Origin: Vulcanimicrobiota bacterium
Lineage (GTDB): Bacteria; Vulcanimicrobiota; Vulcanimicrobiia; Vulcanimicrobiales; Vulcanimicrobiaceae
Direction: 5' to 3'
DNA length: 64,000 bases
NCBI GenBank assembly: GCA_003161435.1
Contig: PMOS01000007.1
Location: 1-64,000, forward strand
This document shows positions 39,796-44,201 of the stretch, in pieces (within the stretch, counting starts at the first letter, position 1; each line of letters opens with the position of its first letter). The notes under the pieces were generated by a model that did not search any database, was not told where the DNA came from, and saw only the letters and a list, made by a program, of their open reading frames with translations. Position numbers and translations under genes: made by a program.

Positions 39796-41082
39796 CTAAC
39801 CGGCTTGTCCGAGAAGGGTCAGCACGCCCATCCAGAGGCCCAAGCCGACGCACACGATGCCCACGCCGACGGTCACCACGTTGCCCAGCGGCGAGTTCAC
39901 GCGATCGCCGAGGATATTCTTGTCGTTCGCCATCACCAGCAGAAAGCCGAGTACGATCGGCAGCACGAACGCGTTGAGCGCCTCGACCCAGACCGTGATC
40001 CGAATCAGCGGCAGATGCGGGATCAGCACGACGCCGGCCGCGATGAGGACCATCCCCGCATACATGCCGTAGAAGCGCTTTGCCTCGTAACAGGCGGCGT
40101 TGAGCGAGCAGCGCCAGGCGAACGCCTCGCCGAACGCCCACGCCGTCGCGAGCGAAACGACCAGTGCGCCAATCAGCGCAGCGCCCAGCAGCCCCGCACC
40201 GAACGCGATCCCGGCCAGCTTCGACCCGGTCAGCGGTACCAATGCGAGCGCTGCGTGGGCCGCATCCGATACGCTCTCGTGTCGCACGAACAACGTCGCC
40301 GCGCAGGTGATGATGATGGCGGCCATGATGATCTGCGTGAGCACCGCGCCGAGCGCCGTATCGATGCGCGCGAACGTCAGGTCCTTCGCGCGCAGTCCCT
40401 TGTCGACGGTCGCCGACTGCTGGTAGAAGATCATCCACGGCATGATGACCGCGCCGATGTTGCCGGCGACGAGCAGTAGGTAATCGCGATTGGCCAGCGG
40501 CTGGCTGCCGAACAGTCCTTCACGTACGACCGTCGCCGGATTCGGATGTGCCGCGAAGGCGGCGGGGATGAACAGCAGTTCCAACAAGCACAGCGCCAGC
40601 GCGAAGACTTCGGCACGTTTGTAGCGACCGCTGAGCACGACGCCGATCAACAGTGTCGCGCCGGCCGCGACCATCGGCAACACCGGCACTCCGAACACGA
40701 GCGCCGCGCCGGCGATCCCGATGAACTCGGTCACCAGCGCGGCGAGGTTCGTGAACAGCATCGTGCCAAGCGAGATCCACGTCCAGGTCAAGCCGTAGTG
40801 CTCGCGGATCAACTCCGCGTGGCCCTTGCCGGTGACCGTCCCGAGCCGCACCGCCATCTCCTGGATGACGAACAGCGGCACGATGAGCAGCACCTGGAGC
40901 AGCACCAGTTTCATCCCGAACTGCGCGCCCGAGGTCGCCGCCGTCGTCACGCTGCCGGCCTCGGTATCGGCGAACGCGACGATCAGTCCGGGTCCGGCGA
41001 CGGCGAGGTAGCGCCAGAGCAGGTTGCGCGAAGCCGGCCGTGCGGCGCCGGGTGGGTGAACGGAGGAGACCGCGGCCATCAT
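39796..41082 (-). CDS. NRAMP-family divalent metal transporter, non-canonical
   Basis: A 428-residue membrane protein with about eleven hydrophobic segments in NRAMP order. The core metal-site motifs deviate: the usual DPGN in helix 1 is DTEAG (AGPGLIVAFADTEAGSV, about 29-45), and the usual MPHN of helix 6 is MPWM (NIGAVIMPWMIFYQQSA). The Asp and the first Met are kept, while the Asn and His are not. The family generally takes up Mn2+/Fe2+ with protons, and divergent clades transport Mg2+ or other ions, so the substrate is open. It reads away from the mobile element. Confidence 0.85.
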   Translation of the reverse strand: MMAAVSSVHPPGAARPASRNLLWRYLAVAGPGLIVAFADTEAGSVTTAATSGAQFGMKLVLLQVLLIVPLFVIQEMAVRLGTVTGKGHAELIREHYGLTWTWISLGTMLFTNLAALVTEFIGIAGAALVFGVPVLPMVAAGATLLIGVVLSGRYKRAEVFALALCLLELLFIPAAFAAHPNPATVVREGLFGSQPLANRDYLLLVAGNIGAVIMPWMIFYQQSATVDKGLRAKDLTFARIDTALGAVLTQIIMAAIIITCAATLFVRHESVSDAAHAALALVPLTGSKLAGIAFGAGLLGAALIGALVVSLATAWAFGEAFAWRCSLNAACYEAKRFYGMYAGMVLIAAGVVLIPHLPLIRITVWVEALNAFVLPIVLGFLLVMANDKNILGDRVNSPLGNVVTVGVGIVCVGLGLWMGVLTLLGQAG

Positions 41083-41136
41083 GACTCCAGGCTGTGAGGT
41101 GTTCCTAACAACTTACTGAGGTCGGACGAAGTTCCC

Positions 41137-41144
41137 CTGCGCCA
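41137..41144 (+). repeat. Left target-site duplication CTGCGCCA
   Basis: The 8-mer CTGCGCCA precedes the left inverted repeat and recurs after the right one at 44061-44068. Depending on the exact terminal base the duplication is six to eight bases. Confidence 0.65.
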
Positions 41145-41145
41145 A

Positions 41146-41163
41146 AGGCTTTGCCCACAAAGG
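41146..41163 (+). repeat. Left terminal inverted repeat (18 bp)
   Basis: AGGCTTTGCCCACAAAGG, continued by GCCG; perfect inverted match to 44045-44062. Confidence 0.8.
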
Positions 41164-41176
41164 GCCGATTCCGGCC

Positions 41177-41210
41177 GATTTAATGGGCAGGTTCCCGATT
41201 TTATGGGCAG
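41177..41210 (+). repeat. Left iteron pair (GATTT-A/T-ATGGGCAG)
   Basis: Two 14-base units, 41177-41190 (GATTTAATGGGCAG) and 41197-41210 (GATTTTATGGGCAG), begin 20 bases apart. A matching pair with the same spacing lies at the right end in the same orientation, so they are not part of the inverted repeat. They probably bind the transposase or an accessory protein. Confidence 0.7.
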
Positions 41211-41227
41211 CCGACACGGGGCTTCCC

Positions 41228-41252
41228 CGGCTATACCTAGTAGGTATATAGG
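41228..41252 (+). promoter_or_regulatory. Operator-like palindrome before the membrane gene
   Basis: CGGCTATACCTAGTAGGTAT overlaps a CTATACC/GGTATATAG inverted repeat and is framed by GGCTTCCCC and GGGGAAGCC arms. The first 12 bases (CGGCTATACCTA) recur exactly at 43073-43084 before the transposase gene, suggesting a shared regulator. Confidence 0.55.
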
Positions 41253-41828
41253 GTGGGGAAGCCATCCCGCGCCGCATGGCCGGGAATCGCCAAATGCCTC
41301 AGGATCGCCGATATCCCGGCGGGGCTATTAGCCTTGCTCGCCCTTTCGAGTGGAATCTTTCCGGCCTGGACGGAGTGCCACCGCTCGCTCCTCTTTACCA
41401 TTGGCGTTGCCTTGACCATAGTCTATTTTTGGTTTGCTATTCGGGGCAGCTACGAACAGACGCGGCATGAGGCCCGGACGGACGCGTCGTTAGCAATTCT
41501 TAGAGCGCGCCGCGAAATGTCACCAATCGCTATAAATAAGCGCGTGACAGAAATGAAAAATCAGCTAAACGAGCTTGATTACCGTGCTTCCAACGATCCA
41601 TCTCAAGAAGATTGGCAGAAAGTTCAGTACGGGTTTTGGGCACTCCGGGAAGAACTCGCGAAGTGCTTAGATGACCTCGAAAGCGTTAAGATCGCGGACT
41701 CGTGGCTATCGTTCTATCATTGGATGCCCCGAGATATTAACGCAACTGATCGCGCTCAGCTTCATAAAACGGCGAAGAAGTTTAAGGTCCTGGTGGACCG
41801 CTTCGCGATCGCGGAGATGAAGCAATGA
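41253..41828 (+). CDS. Membrane and coiled-coil passenger protein of the transposon
   Basis: A 191-residue protein: two hydrophobic helices (about 20-38 and 45-63) followed by a charged, probably coiled-coil cytoplasmic region (RREMSPIAINKRVTEMKNQL). Codon use is much more AT-rich than in the host genes (ATGAAAAATCAGCTAAACG and similar), which points to foreign origin. The start is GTG at 41253 just after the operator, and a later TTG is possible. Function unknown; it might be an abortive-infection or entry-exclusion type effector, but nothing in the sequence proves it. Confidence 0.55.
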   Translation: MGKPSRAAWPGIAKCLRIADIPAGLLALLALSSGIFPAWTECHRSLLFTIGVALTIVYFWFAIRGSYEQTRHEARTDASLAILRARREMSPIAINKRVTEMKNQLNELDYRASNDPSQEDWQKVQYGFWALREELAKCLDDLESVKIADSWLSFYHWMPRDINATDRAQLHKTAKKFKVLVDRFAIAEMKQ

Positions 41829-41836
41829 GTTCGACT

Positions 41837-43060
41837 TTAGGCCGCTCCCCAGAACGTCGCCTCAACACCAAGTTCGTAAAACGCACTAACGAGGCAGCAT
41901 AGATTATGGCAGAGGACCTTACACAGAAGCTCGTTCACTTGCGCGACCGCCGTCTTCGACCGGATACGCGTCCCGAACTTGGCCTTGATCATGCTGAAGG
42001 TCGTCTCCACATTCGACCGCTTGTGGTAGTGCGCCGAGAACTCCTCGCGGCGATACATGAAGAAGAAATACATGCGGCGCCAGAGGTCCGCCCCGTCGCC
42101 TTTCGCGTGGAAGGCGCGCGAGTTACTCTTGAATGGAATCAGCGGGAACGCCCGCGCGTCGTCAATAGCGACGAAGTTGCGCTTCGTGAGGTACGCCTTG
42201 TCGGCGGAAACCATTTCGACGCCGAAGCCGCGCTGGACCGTCGTGTTGAGGAGGTCCGGTAAGTGGAGCGTGTCCTGCGCGTCCGGCCCGTAGTTGTCGG
42301 TCACCTTGACGGCGGTCACGACATTGGTTTTCGTGCCGACCATGACGTGTGCTTTGAGCCATTTCGCGCGCGACATTTCCTTGCCGTACTTGGCGCTGAA
42401 CCACCGCTGATATTCGCTCGTCGTGAAACCGGACGAATCGACGGCAAAGTCGGTTTCGAGGGCCGCGAGAGGCCGCGCGCTCTCCTCGACCATCGCGGTG
42501 AGGATCGGCGTGAGGTCGGGATTTTCGAGCGCGTTGAAAACCGAGTTGTAGTGGGGTGCGCGGTCGATGTAGCCTTTGGCGGCGTAGTCGCGCAGGTCGG
42601 TCATTGCACGACGGCCCGACGTTCCGCCGTACACCTTCATGGCGGCGCAGAAGGCCGCATCGGAGAGCGGTAGGCGCGGCCGTCCGCGGCCTTGGACGGG
42701 GTTGTCGATAGCCGAGCACAGGTCGCGCAGCAGGCCCGCAACGCGCTCCTTTTCGTGAACCTGCGCGGCGTTGTACGCGGGCCATTCCTGCCGGTAGGTC
42801 AGGCGAAGCTGCTCAGCCACTACCGTTCCATCCGGCGCGACCGTTTCACGGCGCATCGTGAACTCGACGGCGAAAACGTGCTTGCACGACGCCTGCCGCG
42901 TTTCGTAGTCGGGGCAGGTGCAGGTCGCCCCGCGCGCTTCGGTCGGGTCAACGACGTAGGTTCCCGCGCCCGCCTGGGACGGCACGACCCACAGGTCGCC
43001 CTTTTGCCTCAGCTTCTTCGTAGCGGCGATTTCCAGACCACGCTGCTCCCGAACGTCCAT
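41837..43060 (-). CDS. DDE transposase with N-terminal SWIM zinc finger
   Basis: A 407-residue transposase. The SWIM motif CTCPDYETRQASCKH (CxC...CxH, C47, C49, C59, H61) lies at the N-terminus, and the RNase H-like catalytic core has D208 (FAVDSSGF), D287 (VSADKAY) and E352 (SNVETTFSMIK). The length is normal for an IS4/IS5-like transposase, and the frame is intact. The start ATG has GAGGAGG upstream and a TTGACC-17-TATACT promoter. The SWIM finger probably binds DNA ends. Confidence 0.85.
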   Translation of the reverse strand: MDVREQRGLEIAATKKLRQKGDLWVVPSQAGAGTYVVDPTEARGATCTCPDYETRQASCKHVFAVEFTMRRETVAPDGTVVAEQLRLTYRQEWPAYNAAQVHEKERVAGLLRDLCSAIDNPVQGRGRPRLPLSDAAFCAAMKVYGGTSGRRAMTDLRDYAAKGYIDRAPHYNSVFNALENPDLTPILTAMVEESARPLAALETDFAVDSSGFTTSEYQRWFSAKYGKEMSRAKWLKAHVMVGTKTNVVTAVKVTDNYGPDAQDTLHLPDLLNTTVQRGFGVEMVSADKAYLTKRNFVAIDDARAFPLIPFKSNSRAFHAKGDGADLWRRMYFFFMYRREEFSAHYHKRSNVETTFSMIKAKFGTRIRSKTAVAQVNELLCKVLCHNLCCLVSAFYELGVEATFWGAA

Positions 43061-43072
43061 CCCGAACCTCCT

Positions 43073-43095
43073 CGGCTATACCTACTAGTAGTATA
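43073..43095 (-). promoter_or_regulatory. Operator-like site over the transposase promoter
   Basis: CGGCTATACCTACTAGTAGTATA here shares CGGCTATACCTA-TAG with 41228-41244 and overlaps the transposase -10 box, which fits autoregulation. Confidence 0.5.
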
Positions 43096-43118
43096 CCTAA
43101 CGGGATGCTCGTGGTCAA
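43090..43118 (-). promoter_or_regulatory. Transposase promoter (TTGACC-17-TATACT)
   Basis: On the minus strand the -35 TTGACC (43118-43113) and -10 TATACT (43095-43090) are separated by exactly 17 bases, an excellent sigma-70 type match. Confidence 0.7.
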
Positions 43119-43133
43119 CCCTTTGGGGATATA

Positions 43134-43161
43134 TTGACGGTATATTCCTGTTGGATGTAGT
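43134..43161 (+). promoter_or_regulatory. Promoter of the zinc-ribbon gene (TTGACG-16-TGTAGT)
   Basis: TTGACG (43134-43139) and TGTAGT (43156-43161) would start transcription a base or two before the ATG at 43170. There is no ribosome site, so the message is probably leaderless. Confidence 0.45.
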
Positions 43162-43169
43162 CTATCGGC

Positions 43170-43307
43170 ATGGCAAAGGTGAAGCTTAGCGGTTATCGCT
43201 GCGACCGCTGCGAGCACGAATGGCTCCCGCGCGACAGGGACCAGGACCCGAAGGTCTGCCCCAAGTGCAAGTCGCCGTATTGGAACACCCCACGACGCGT
43301 AAAGTAG
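43170..43307 (+). CDS. Zinc-ribbon protein, 45 aa
   Basis: A tiny protein with two knuckles, CDRCEHEW and CPKCKSPYW (C11, C14, C30, C33), and basic ends. This short MAKVKLSGYRC-type family occurs widely in archaeal and bacterial mobile DNA as a presumptive nucleic-acid binder. It diverges from the transposase gene. Confidence 0.75.
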   Translation: MAKVKLSGYRCDRCEHEWLPRDRDQDPKVCPKCKSPYWNTPRRVK

Positions 43308-43311
43308 CGCG

Positions 43312-43782
43312 TCATTCGGCTTTAGACAGGTCGGCGAGGCGACCCAACAGGACGTAATGCCCGTTGGCGAATCGCTCGATCTTCAGCCCCTTCTTCCGAA
43401 GGTTGGCGATCCCGAATTGAGTAGCGCGTAGCGGGTCCGCCATCGACGTTTTGGCCCCGAACCGCTTTGCGATCTCCCACAGCGCGGGGAGCGTTGCGCC
43501 TCGTGCCCCGGACATAATCAACGCACGCTCCAGCGCGTCGTTGAGCGTAACGTTTTCCGGCTGTGCGGCGACCTCGTCGGCTTTTGGCTCGGGGGGCTCA
43601 GCCCAGGGCATTGCCTGGTTCTCTACCGCGGTCGCGCCTGCGGTTTCCAAAAGCTCCTCAAGCCCGGACACGACCTTTTGTAGCGCGCGGGCTCGCTTCG
43701 TCCACGCCTCTAGCATGCGGGTCGCCTCAGCGTGCTCTCCTCGGTGCTGATCTAGCTCGGTTTGAAGCTGCTCGCGGTCCAT
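43312..43782 (-). CDS. Coiled-coil/winged-helix-like transposon protein
   Basis: A 156-residue protein. The first 55 residues are a heptad-patterned coiled coil (LQTELDQHRGEHAEATRMLE), then an acidic Pro-rich linker, and the C-terminal 80 residues (LNDALERALIMSGARGATLP; TQFGIANLRKKGLKIERF) look like a winged helix-turn-helix. It is convergent with the zinc-ribbon gene, with four bases between. It may bind the iterons or the tRNA-like RNA. Confidence 0.55.
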   Translation of the reverse strand: MDREQLQTELDQHRGEHAEATRMLEAWTKRARALQKVVSGLEELLETAGATAVENQAMPWAEPPEPKADEVAAQPENVTLNDALERALIMSGARGATLPALWEIAKRFGAKTSMADPLRATQFGIANLRKKGLKIERFANGHYVLLGRLADLSKAE

Positions 43783-43792
43783 TTTGCCTCGC

Positions 43793-43821
43793 TTGACCTA
43801 TTTCGCTAGGTCCCGTAGAAT
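43793..43821 (+). promoter_or_regulatory. Strong promoter (TTGACC-17-TAGAAT) of a short transcript
   Basis: TTGACC (43793-43798) and TAGAAT (43816-43821) are exactly 17 bases apart. The terminator at 43915-43948 defines a transcript of about 120 bases. Confidence 0.65.
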
Positions 43822-43831
43822 AGGGAAAAGC

Positions 43832-43901
43832 TGGTGGACCACAGGGGAATCCAACCCCTCGCCGTGCCCCGTGACATGAGGCGGCGGAGCAGTCGTGGCC
43901 C
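43832..43901 (-). tRNA. tRNA-Asp-like structure (anticodon GUC) lacking a D-arm
   Basis: Minus strand: acceptor GGGCCAC pairs with GTGGTCC (one G-U), discriminator A and an encoded CCA follow. The anticodon stem GCCTC/GGGGC holds a seven-base loop ATGTCAC with U33 and anticodon GTC (complement of 43873-43875), and the T-arm is AGGGG-TTGGATT-CCCCT. The T-loop has G where C56 is normal, and only 12 bases take the place of the D-arm. It is more likely a tRNA mimic or decayed tRNA than a working one. Confidence 0.4.
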
Positions 43902-43914
43902 GTTAGCTTGCCGA

Positions 43915-43948
43915 GCCGACCGTGACGAAAGTCGCGGTCGGCTTCTTT
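43915..43948 (+). terminator. Intrinsic terminator, 12-bp stem with GAAA tetraloop
   Basis: GCCGACCGTGAC, loop GAAA, GTCGCGGTCGGC, then TTCTTT. The stem has a single G-T pair and is the strongest terminator I see in the window. Confidence 0.85.
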
Positions 43949-44005
43949 AGTGTACGGATGCCTGAGTCGCGAGTCAACTCAAAACTCAAAATTCAACACA
44001 CTCGC

Positions 44006-44039
44006 GAGTTTATGGGCAGCGCGGTGATTTCTTGGGCAG
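44006..44039 (+). repeat. Right iteron pair
   Basis: GAGTTTATGGGCAG (44006-44019) and GATTTCTTGGGCAG (44026-44039) are again 20 bases apart and in the same orientation as the left pair. Confidence 0.65.
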
Positions 44040-44044
44040 ACCGG

Positions 44045-44062
44045 CCTTTGTGGGCAAAGCCT
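44045..44062 (-). repeat. Right terminal inverted repeat (18 bp)
   Basis: The reverse complement reads AGGCTTTGCCCACAAAGG, identical to the left repeat. Confidence 0.8.
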
Positions 44063-44201
44063 GCGCCAGCTCGCTCTGCTCCAGGCGAGCCATCCGGATC
44101 CGCGCGTCGTCGGCGAAGGCAGCTGGCCGTGCGACTGTCGCGCGTTCGCGCGCCCCGAAAACGACTATCTGTGGGTTCCCTGCGGGCAGCACCAGCCGTA
44201 A
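44061..44201 (+). pseudogene. 3' part of a small host gene cut by the transposon
   Basis: The frame ctg-cgc-cag runs open to TAA at 44199-44201 with protein-like residues: GEGSWPCDCRAF, then YLWVPCGQHQP. Upstream in this frame there is only transposon end and a stop. Joining it to the left flank at CTGCGCCA extends the frame back to at least 41106 (residues NNLLRSDEVPL). I see no ATG or GTG start in that extension, and a CTG at about 41115 is possible. The cysteine pairs suggest a small metal-binding protein, otherwise unknown. Confidence 0.45.

Follow-up and report, generated by a model that had tools for sequence, protein, structure and literature searches.

The 64,000-nucleotide stretch of contig PMOS01000007.1 (assembly GCA_003161435.1) from a Vulcanimicrobiota bacterium, referred to here as the window, contains a 2915-bp transposon beside a gene for an Nramp-type metal transporter. 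The best explanation, to which we assign a probability of roughly 0.78, is that this is an IS903-like SWIM transposon whose family targets promoter edges in a clade-specific manner and carries exchangeable, often defence-type cargo. Such an element would be a DNA transposon from the IS903 branch of the IS5-like elements to which an N-terminal SWIM zinc finger has been added. Its core would comprise the GGCTTTG... ends, internal TGGGCAG repeats, the transposase, and a divergent zinc ribbon, and the remainder of its 2-8 kb would be exchangeable cargo, often of restriction-modification or toxin-antitoxin type. In the host family, within Eremiobacterota (Vulcanimicrobiota), each transposase clade would have its own fixed place just upstream of a core promoter, namely those of ribBA and argF and the metal-box promoters of FTR1 and Nramp, with the transposase-3' end usually facing the gene. 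The transposase, perhaps via its SWIM finger or the zinc ribbon, may recognise promoter DNA, a bound regulator, or the polymerase. The sequence comparisons behind this proposal show the ends, the 9-bp target copies of relatives, the zinc-ribbon linkage, the cargo turnover, the fixed spacing, and the link between clade and target; the activity of the element and what recognises the promoter we infer.

Transposase, ends, and target copies

The core of the element consists of the following features (window coordinates):

41147..44061: whole element, 2915 bp, ends set against 29 relatives with 9/9 target copies
41146..41163, + strand: inverted end on the left (transposase-3') side, towards Nramp; all 18 nt complementary to 44045-44062
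44045..44062, - strand: right (transposase-5') inverted end, partner of 41146-41163
41138..41146, + strand: target copy at the left end, TGCGCCAAA, 7/9 identical to the right copy
44062..44070, + strand: target copy at the right end, TGCGCCAGC, 7/9 identical to the left copy
41173..41211, + strand: two subterminal ATGGGCAG-type repeats, like repeats near the ends of relatives
44002..44020, + strand: right-end subterminal repeat
41837..43060, - strand: SWIM-DDE transposase, 407 amino acids, DDE_Tnp_1 (PF01609)
43170..43307, + strand: zinc ribbon of 45 amino acids, a recurrent accessory, divergent from the transposase

From left to right the gene order is membrane gene (+), transposase (-), zinc ribbon (+), coiled-coil gene (-), and candidate small RNA (+). 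The transposase has a Tn5-like fold, and its DDE_Tnp_1 catalytic domain scores 70.7 bits against a Pfam cut-off of 23. The triad D208, D287, and E352 and the CxC...CxH residues of the N-terminal SWIM finger (C47, C49, C59, H61) are invariant across 28 aligned sequences, the window copy and 27 relatives. The SWIM finger itself reaches 18.5 bits in Pfam, slightly below the cut-off of 19.6. No Mutator/IS256-type catalytic domain was matched in the transposase by Pfam at E<=1, and a search of the PDB by sequence gave weak chitinase-type matches only. An earlier account made from the letters of the window (the sequence-only reading) had described the element as a bounded transposon that encodes a SWIM-DDE transposase and carries genes other than resistance genes, and this view is supported.

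The boundaries given in that account need adjustment. The 18-bp perfect inverted ends stand, and the relatives place the element proper between the GGCTTTG opening at 41147 and its close at 44061. A direct repeat does lie outside the ends, as had been noticed, with a size not of 6-8 bp but of 9 bp, which is the target duplication of the element family. The two target copies are 9/9 identical in 29 of the 34 end pairs of the family, a count that is not to be read as a rate because end pairs were chosen partly by target-copy match (at least 7/9 or at least 8/9). Against this the window copies match at only 7/9 positions, and the idea of a fresh repeat and a recent insertion is not supported. The probability that at least 7/9 positions agree by chance is 0.0013 for one fixed pair, and in a shifted-pair control 2 of 5974 pairs reached at least 8/9. 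In three loci (L083, L092, L096) the target copies do not match, and in L079 they match only after a 1-bp shift. In genome G063 the scaffold with the occupied site also runs, past a gap, without a break from the 5' flank through one GCCTCAGGT into the 3' flank. This string is a natural empty site, though it lies at a scaffold join.

Target sites at promoter edges

The gene names argF, FTR1, Nramp, and groES were assigned by eye from translations, and ribBA by Pfam. The ribBA gene first surfaced, five times, among the flanking open reading frames (ORFs) that served as control for the cargo. Among 81 placed distinct ribBA leaders (82 tried), nine have an element end. In eight genomes (G027, G034, G021, G100, G020, G060, G112, G104) the end is found 49-52 bp 5' of codon 1 and 17-18 bp 5' of TTGACA. 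In G063 the spacing to the first TTGAC is 17 bp, yet the distance to codon 1 is 85 bp because of the scaffold join. A further leader (L209) shows a weak two-mismatch end match 152 bp away. At argF the end is located 10-11 bp 5' of the TTGCAT of a palindromic promoter, which we take to be arginine-box-like, in G003, G008, G001, G102, and a relic on contig C13 of the window genome. These are five of the 30 leaders fetched (75 places), four of them in the window's genus. For FTR1, 3 of 30 leaders fetched (G078, G112, G063) have the end at a distance of exactly 38 bp 5' of a TTAGGNNNNCCTAA box; three more degenerate ends at 46, 46, and 32 bp were not counted. The copy in L076 lies 11 bp 5' of TTGCAG, a hexamer of groES that resembles a promoter element. 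The window copy has the same 38-bp spacing, to the box of a different gene; both features are outside the element:

41095..41108, - strand: TTAGGAACACCTCA box in the Nramp promoter, separated from the element end by 38 bp
39796..41082, - strand: Nramp-type metal transporter adjoining the insertion, name by eye

An Nramp relative is present in 83 of 99 genomes of the host family, and a box like TTAGGAACACCTCA is found in many Nramp leaders of relatives. In none of the 27 readable leaders (29 relatives fetched) does an element end occupy the position that it has in the window; weak end matches with two mismatches occur elsewhere in three cases, 17, 112, and 153 bp before codon 1. The Nramp relatives keep the near flank and the box, and the alignment of the far flank was equalled by 9 to 174 of 200 shuffles in seven relatives. 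The methionine-sulfoxide-reductase-like gene on the other side of the element has a relative in G004, in a locus without Nramp.

The transposase-3' end points towards the promoter in 13 of 14 cases, the ambiguous G106 among them (one-sided chance 0.0009). In addition, the target class follows the transposase tree: it requires 3 changes, compared with a mean of 5.5 after shuffling, and 0 of 200 shuffles were as low (13 labelled rows). It could be argued that selection alone produced this picture, insertions elsewhere having been lost and the survivors sitting where they are harmless or help expression. There is precedent in Escherichia coli, where IS5 under selection is found at one place and in one orientation upstream of glpFK or fucAO (PMC11894529). 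However, base-pair spacings of 17-18, 10-11, and 38 are hard to obtain by tolerance alone, and the target class tracks the transposase clade. Selection would account for the general location but neither for the base-pair precision nor for the clade link, and we regard it as a doubtful, if serious, explanation. It is much harder to imagine a single ancient insertion at ribBA that was inherited vertically while its cargo was swapped in place. The ribBA-class transposases do form one branch (support 96/93), but the target copies are identical within each element and different between genomes, and 72 of the 81 ribBA leaders have no element end at the place. This scenario is very improbable.

A riboswitch was also considered as the target and rejected, since eight loci including the ribBA loci L039, L046, L081, L082, and L084 gave no Rfam match at the gathering score; nothing in the surroundings of the window site came near that score. 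At the start of contig 46 of G106 (L080/L240) there are 24 bp that resemble the ribBA promoter, together with an element end, yet an intact ribBA leader is found on this contig too. The assembly may mix occupied and empty alleles, and the ambiguous case was left out of the occupied ribBA count. At the ribBA promoter of G112, a 420-bp pair of family ends resembling a miniature inverted-repeat transposable element, without a transposase match, was observed (L237:166-585), with a second end from 596.

Zinc ribbon and operator-like sequences

A tblastn search located the zinc ribbon in 18 of 34 elements; it adjoins the transposase divergently in 17 of the 18. Within the window's genus, 3 of 11 genomes carry it, at five places in all, three of which adjoin a transposase or its remnant; for the other two, on C14 of the window's own genome and on C12 of G004, no adjacency to a transposase was established. 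The sequence-only reading had counted it as a passenger together with the membrane and coiled-coil genes. The latter two were found in this copy only, while the zinc ribbon recurs at the side of the transposase. Two operator-like sequences accompany these genes:

43077..43096, + strand: operator-like sequence in the divergent promoter of transposase and zinc ribbon, 18/20 to a pattern drawn by eye
41232..41251, + strand: second operator-like sequence, directly 5' of the membrane gene, 17/20

The pattern was drawn from L074, L075, L077, and L095, and in the 64-kb window scores of at least 17/20 are reached only at these two places. That the operator is conserved in all relatives was rejected: it is clear only in L074, L075, L077, L084, and L095, four of which are the sources of the pattern, and the remaining relatives show it weakly or no better than chance. 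The operator-like sequence common to both promoters suggests joint control, which may run through the zinc ribbon. The zinc ribbon probably helps to regulate or target transposition.

Cargo and its turnover

The smallest elements, L031 (2.1 kb) and L028 (2.5 kb), contain little beyond transposase and zinc ribbon, and the window copy and most relatives carry additional ORFs as passenger genes. Cargo was predicted crudely as the longest non-overlapping ORFs, some of which are surely not genes, and the set comprises 118 ORFs of at least 80 amino acids from 33 elements (L079 omitted, the L028 ORF hand-picked). The best 25 of 31 Pfam families matched include N6_N4_Mtase (5), N6_Mtase (3), C5 methylase (1), and D12 methylase (1), together with BstXI endonuclease (1), AIPR (1), SocA_Panacea (1), PIN_10 (1), IrrE (2), and P63C (2). 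In the flank control of 110 ORFs, the best 25 of 69 families include one methyltransferase (D12) and one DruA. Counting the listed families only, DNA methyltransferases thus make up 10/118 cargo ORFs compared to 1/110 flank ORFs. Their carriers are 10 of the 33 elements (L033, L034, L035, L081, the second element of L029, L088, L095, L097, L102, L104). PIN or IrrE domains are found in L038, L077, L092, and weakly in L107, and restriction-modification, abortive-infection, or toxin-antitoxin-type domains altogether in 14 of the 33. The cargo matched 299 PADLOC models and the flanks 29; among the best 25 of each, many are redundant methyltransferase models, and the flank matches include DarG, pVip, and one restriction-enzyme model. 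On the transposase tree, which omits rows with stop codons such as L034, the methyltransferase label requires 7 changes against a shuffled mean of 7.2, and 299 of 500 shuffles were as low (22 labelled rows). The label is scattered at random: the cargo is exchanged freely. Membrane proteins as a general feature of the cargo were rejected (24/118 cargo against 23/110 flank ORFs); a gene with predicted hydrophobic stretches lies beside the 3' end in the window copy and in L039, L043, L046, L074, L075, L076, L077, and L082.

The cargo of the window copy is as follows:

41253..41828, + strand: protein of 191 amino acids, copy-specific cargo, hydrophobic stretches predicted at two places, starting at residues 18 and 45
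43312..43782, - strand: coiled-coil-like protein of 156 amino acids, possible C-terminal winged helix
43793..43950, + strand: candidate small RNA, promoter-like 43793-43821, terminator-like 43913-43944, a prediction

At E<=0.01 the membrane protein matches nothing in Pfam, NCBIfam, or PADLOC; it has a single weak PHROG match (E 0.003) and finds only itself among 149 genomes of its phylum. The coiled-coil protein finds itself and one weak match (E 6e-4), its likeness to proteins of other elements having been judged by eye only. The winged helix proposed for it was not confirmed, the sole such Pfam match being HTH_91 at E 0.46, with none in NCBIfam. PADLOC models match neither protein at E<=1. 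Both genes may be defence or persistence cargo. The candidate small RNA is flanked by the coiled-coil gene on one side and the right end on the other. Its promoter- and terminator-like unit and its stable fold (z -3.09, 0 of 200 shuffles equally stable) agree with the sequence-only reading, and it stays a prediction, with no relative in the fetched loci and no Rfam match near the gathering score. As to whether the same cargo moves as a unit, no other copy with the window cargo was found, the membrane gene being present in 1 of 149 genomes, its own. The refuting conditions named in the sequence-only reading did not turn up in the searched data: the membrane and coiled-coil genes were not seen apart from the transposase, and the 27 readable Nramp leaders have no element end at the place it occupies in the window.

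The element might also be an ordinary insertion sequence of the IS5/IS903 family that trapped neighbouring genes by chance, so that cargo and site would be meaningless. The IS903-like ends, the 9-bp target copies, the lack of known families in the window cargo, and the nearly empty L031 and L028 would fit. However, the excess of methyltransferases over the flanks and the exact insertion place repeated at three promoters speak against it, and we consider this explanation unlikely.

Several observations also weigh against the IS903-like, promoter-targeting SWIM transposon, besides the partial selection of end pairs by their target copies. The target copies of the window differ at 2/9 positions, and a full empty site for this copy was not found, the far flank being without clear alignment in relatives. 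The best NCBIfam IS5 model, equivalog NF033579, scores 119.5 bits, under its cut-off of 140. L077 and L041 are inside the ribBA branch but not at ribBA, and the target tree contains short rows (5/20 under half filled). The promoter rule was not seen by eye in the viral and archaeal copies. Among the best 25 of 31 Pfam families, 19 of 33 elements have no restriction, abortive-infection, or toxin-antitoxin domain, and helix-turn-helix domains are not enriched in the cargo relative to the flanks (HTH_3 7/118 and 6/110).

Distribution and implications

Scanning of genomes yielded 11 loci in Eremiobacterota, Rokubacteria, Blastocatellia, Chloroflexi, Micrarchaeota, Marsarchaeota, and Methanothrix, and viral contigs yielded 26 loci. 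L091, L092, L109, and L112 look alike, as do L102 and L103, and each group was counted once. In the host family the transposase model matches 19/99 genomes at 1e-20, some of them distant. According to a pattern search, the window's own genome (83% complete, 44 contigs) has paired ends at the window place only; C1 contains one unpaired exact end, and relics are present on C13, C14, and C25. Two of the viral loci are in very large contigs classed as viral, of 452 and 619 kb (L100 and L101, IMG/VR), and one 123-kb viral contig contains two family members (L096 and L099), the target copies of L096 being mismatched. In L029:205-10551 two different members are adjacent, with the common target GAACCATAG in an overlapping 17-bp spacer; one of them carries a restriction-modification-type pair.

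Two wider problems meet in this family. One is the spread of small defence modules among distant microbes, the other the evolution of precise new targets by a simple transposase. Comparing clades whose fixed promoter targets differ is a natural way to find what determines targeting, and new anti-phage genes may be sought among the orphan cargo of such elements. More tentatively, and at somewhat less than even odds, transposition could be promoter-directed: through its SWIM finger or the zinc-ribbon partner, the transposase would recognise either the promoter or a host protein bound to it, and each clade would insert at a fixed base pair on the upstream edge of one housekeeping promoter (ribBA, argF, or metal-box genes). 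Such a site could be a safe harbour from which exchangeable defence modules are spread, with the two-transmembrane protein as an unknown defence effector.

Comparison with known systems

To our knowledge, each part of the element has precedent while the combination is known nowhere. A literature search that included the IS903 end, with most subscription papers outside its scope, found no description of a prokaryotic SWIM-DDE transposon of this kind. The closest likeness is to the IS903 group of the IS5 family, with which the element shares the GGCTTTG... ends, the 9-bp target repeat, and the DDE_Tnp_1 core. IS903B has GGCTTTGTTGAATAAATC ends and a 9-bp repeat (PMC10569121), and the L104 end GGCTTTGTTTAATAAGTA is close to the IS903B end. 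Plasmid relatives are annotated as IS5-like at 26-31% identity (best 12 of 94 records), and 12 phage records at 26.5% identity are annotated as transposase. Two plasmid relatives were inspected, one with GGCTTTGTTG ends and the other with only a weaker pair. The window element differs by an added N-terminal SWIM finger, internal repeats, a divergent zinc ribbon, and a score below the NCBIfam cut-off, and its family by fixed promoter-edge sites and by exchangeable cargo, the IS903 group being without passenger genes.

Mutator-like elements (MULEs) of eukaryotes have SWIM fingers and target repeats of about 9 bp. They insert in or near genes and acquire fragments of host genes (PMC6446971). In the window element the putative SWIM finger, invariant in its residues but under the Pfam cut-off, is N-terminal, the core is IS5-like, and there is no Mutator-type Pfam match. 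The likeness to MULEs is a parallel and not membership.

Passenger-carrying insertion sequences (tIS) have simple ends and one transposase together with unrelated genes. The family described here differs from them in the recurrent restriction-modification and toxin-antitoxin-type cargo and in the recurrent zinc-ribbon partner. Other insertion sequences occupy a fixed place through a conserved site, such as the ISAjo2/IS1202 family at dif sites (PMC10132070) and IS5 at fucAO in E. coli (PMC11894529). Unlike these, the present family would use several unrelated promoters, which differ by transposase clade.

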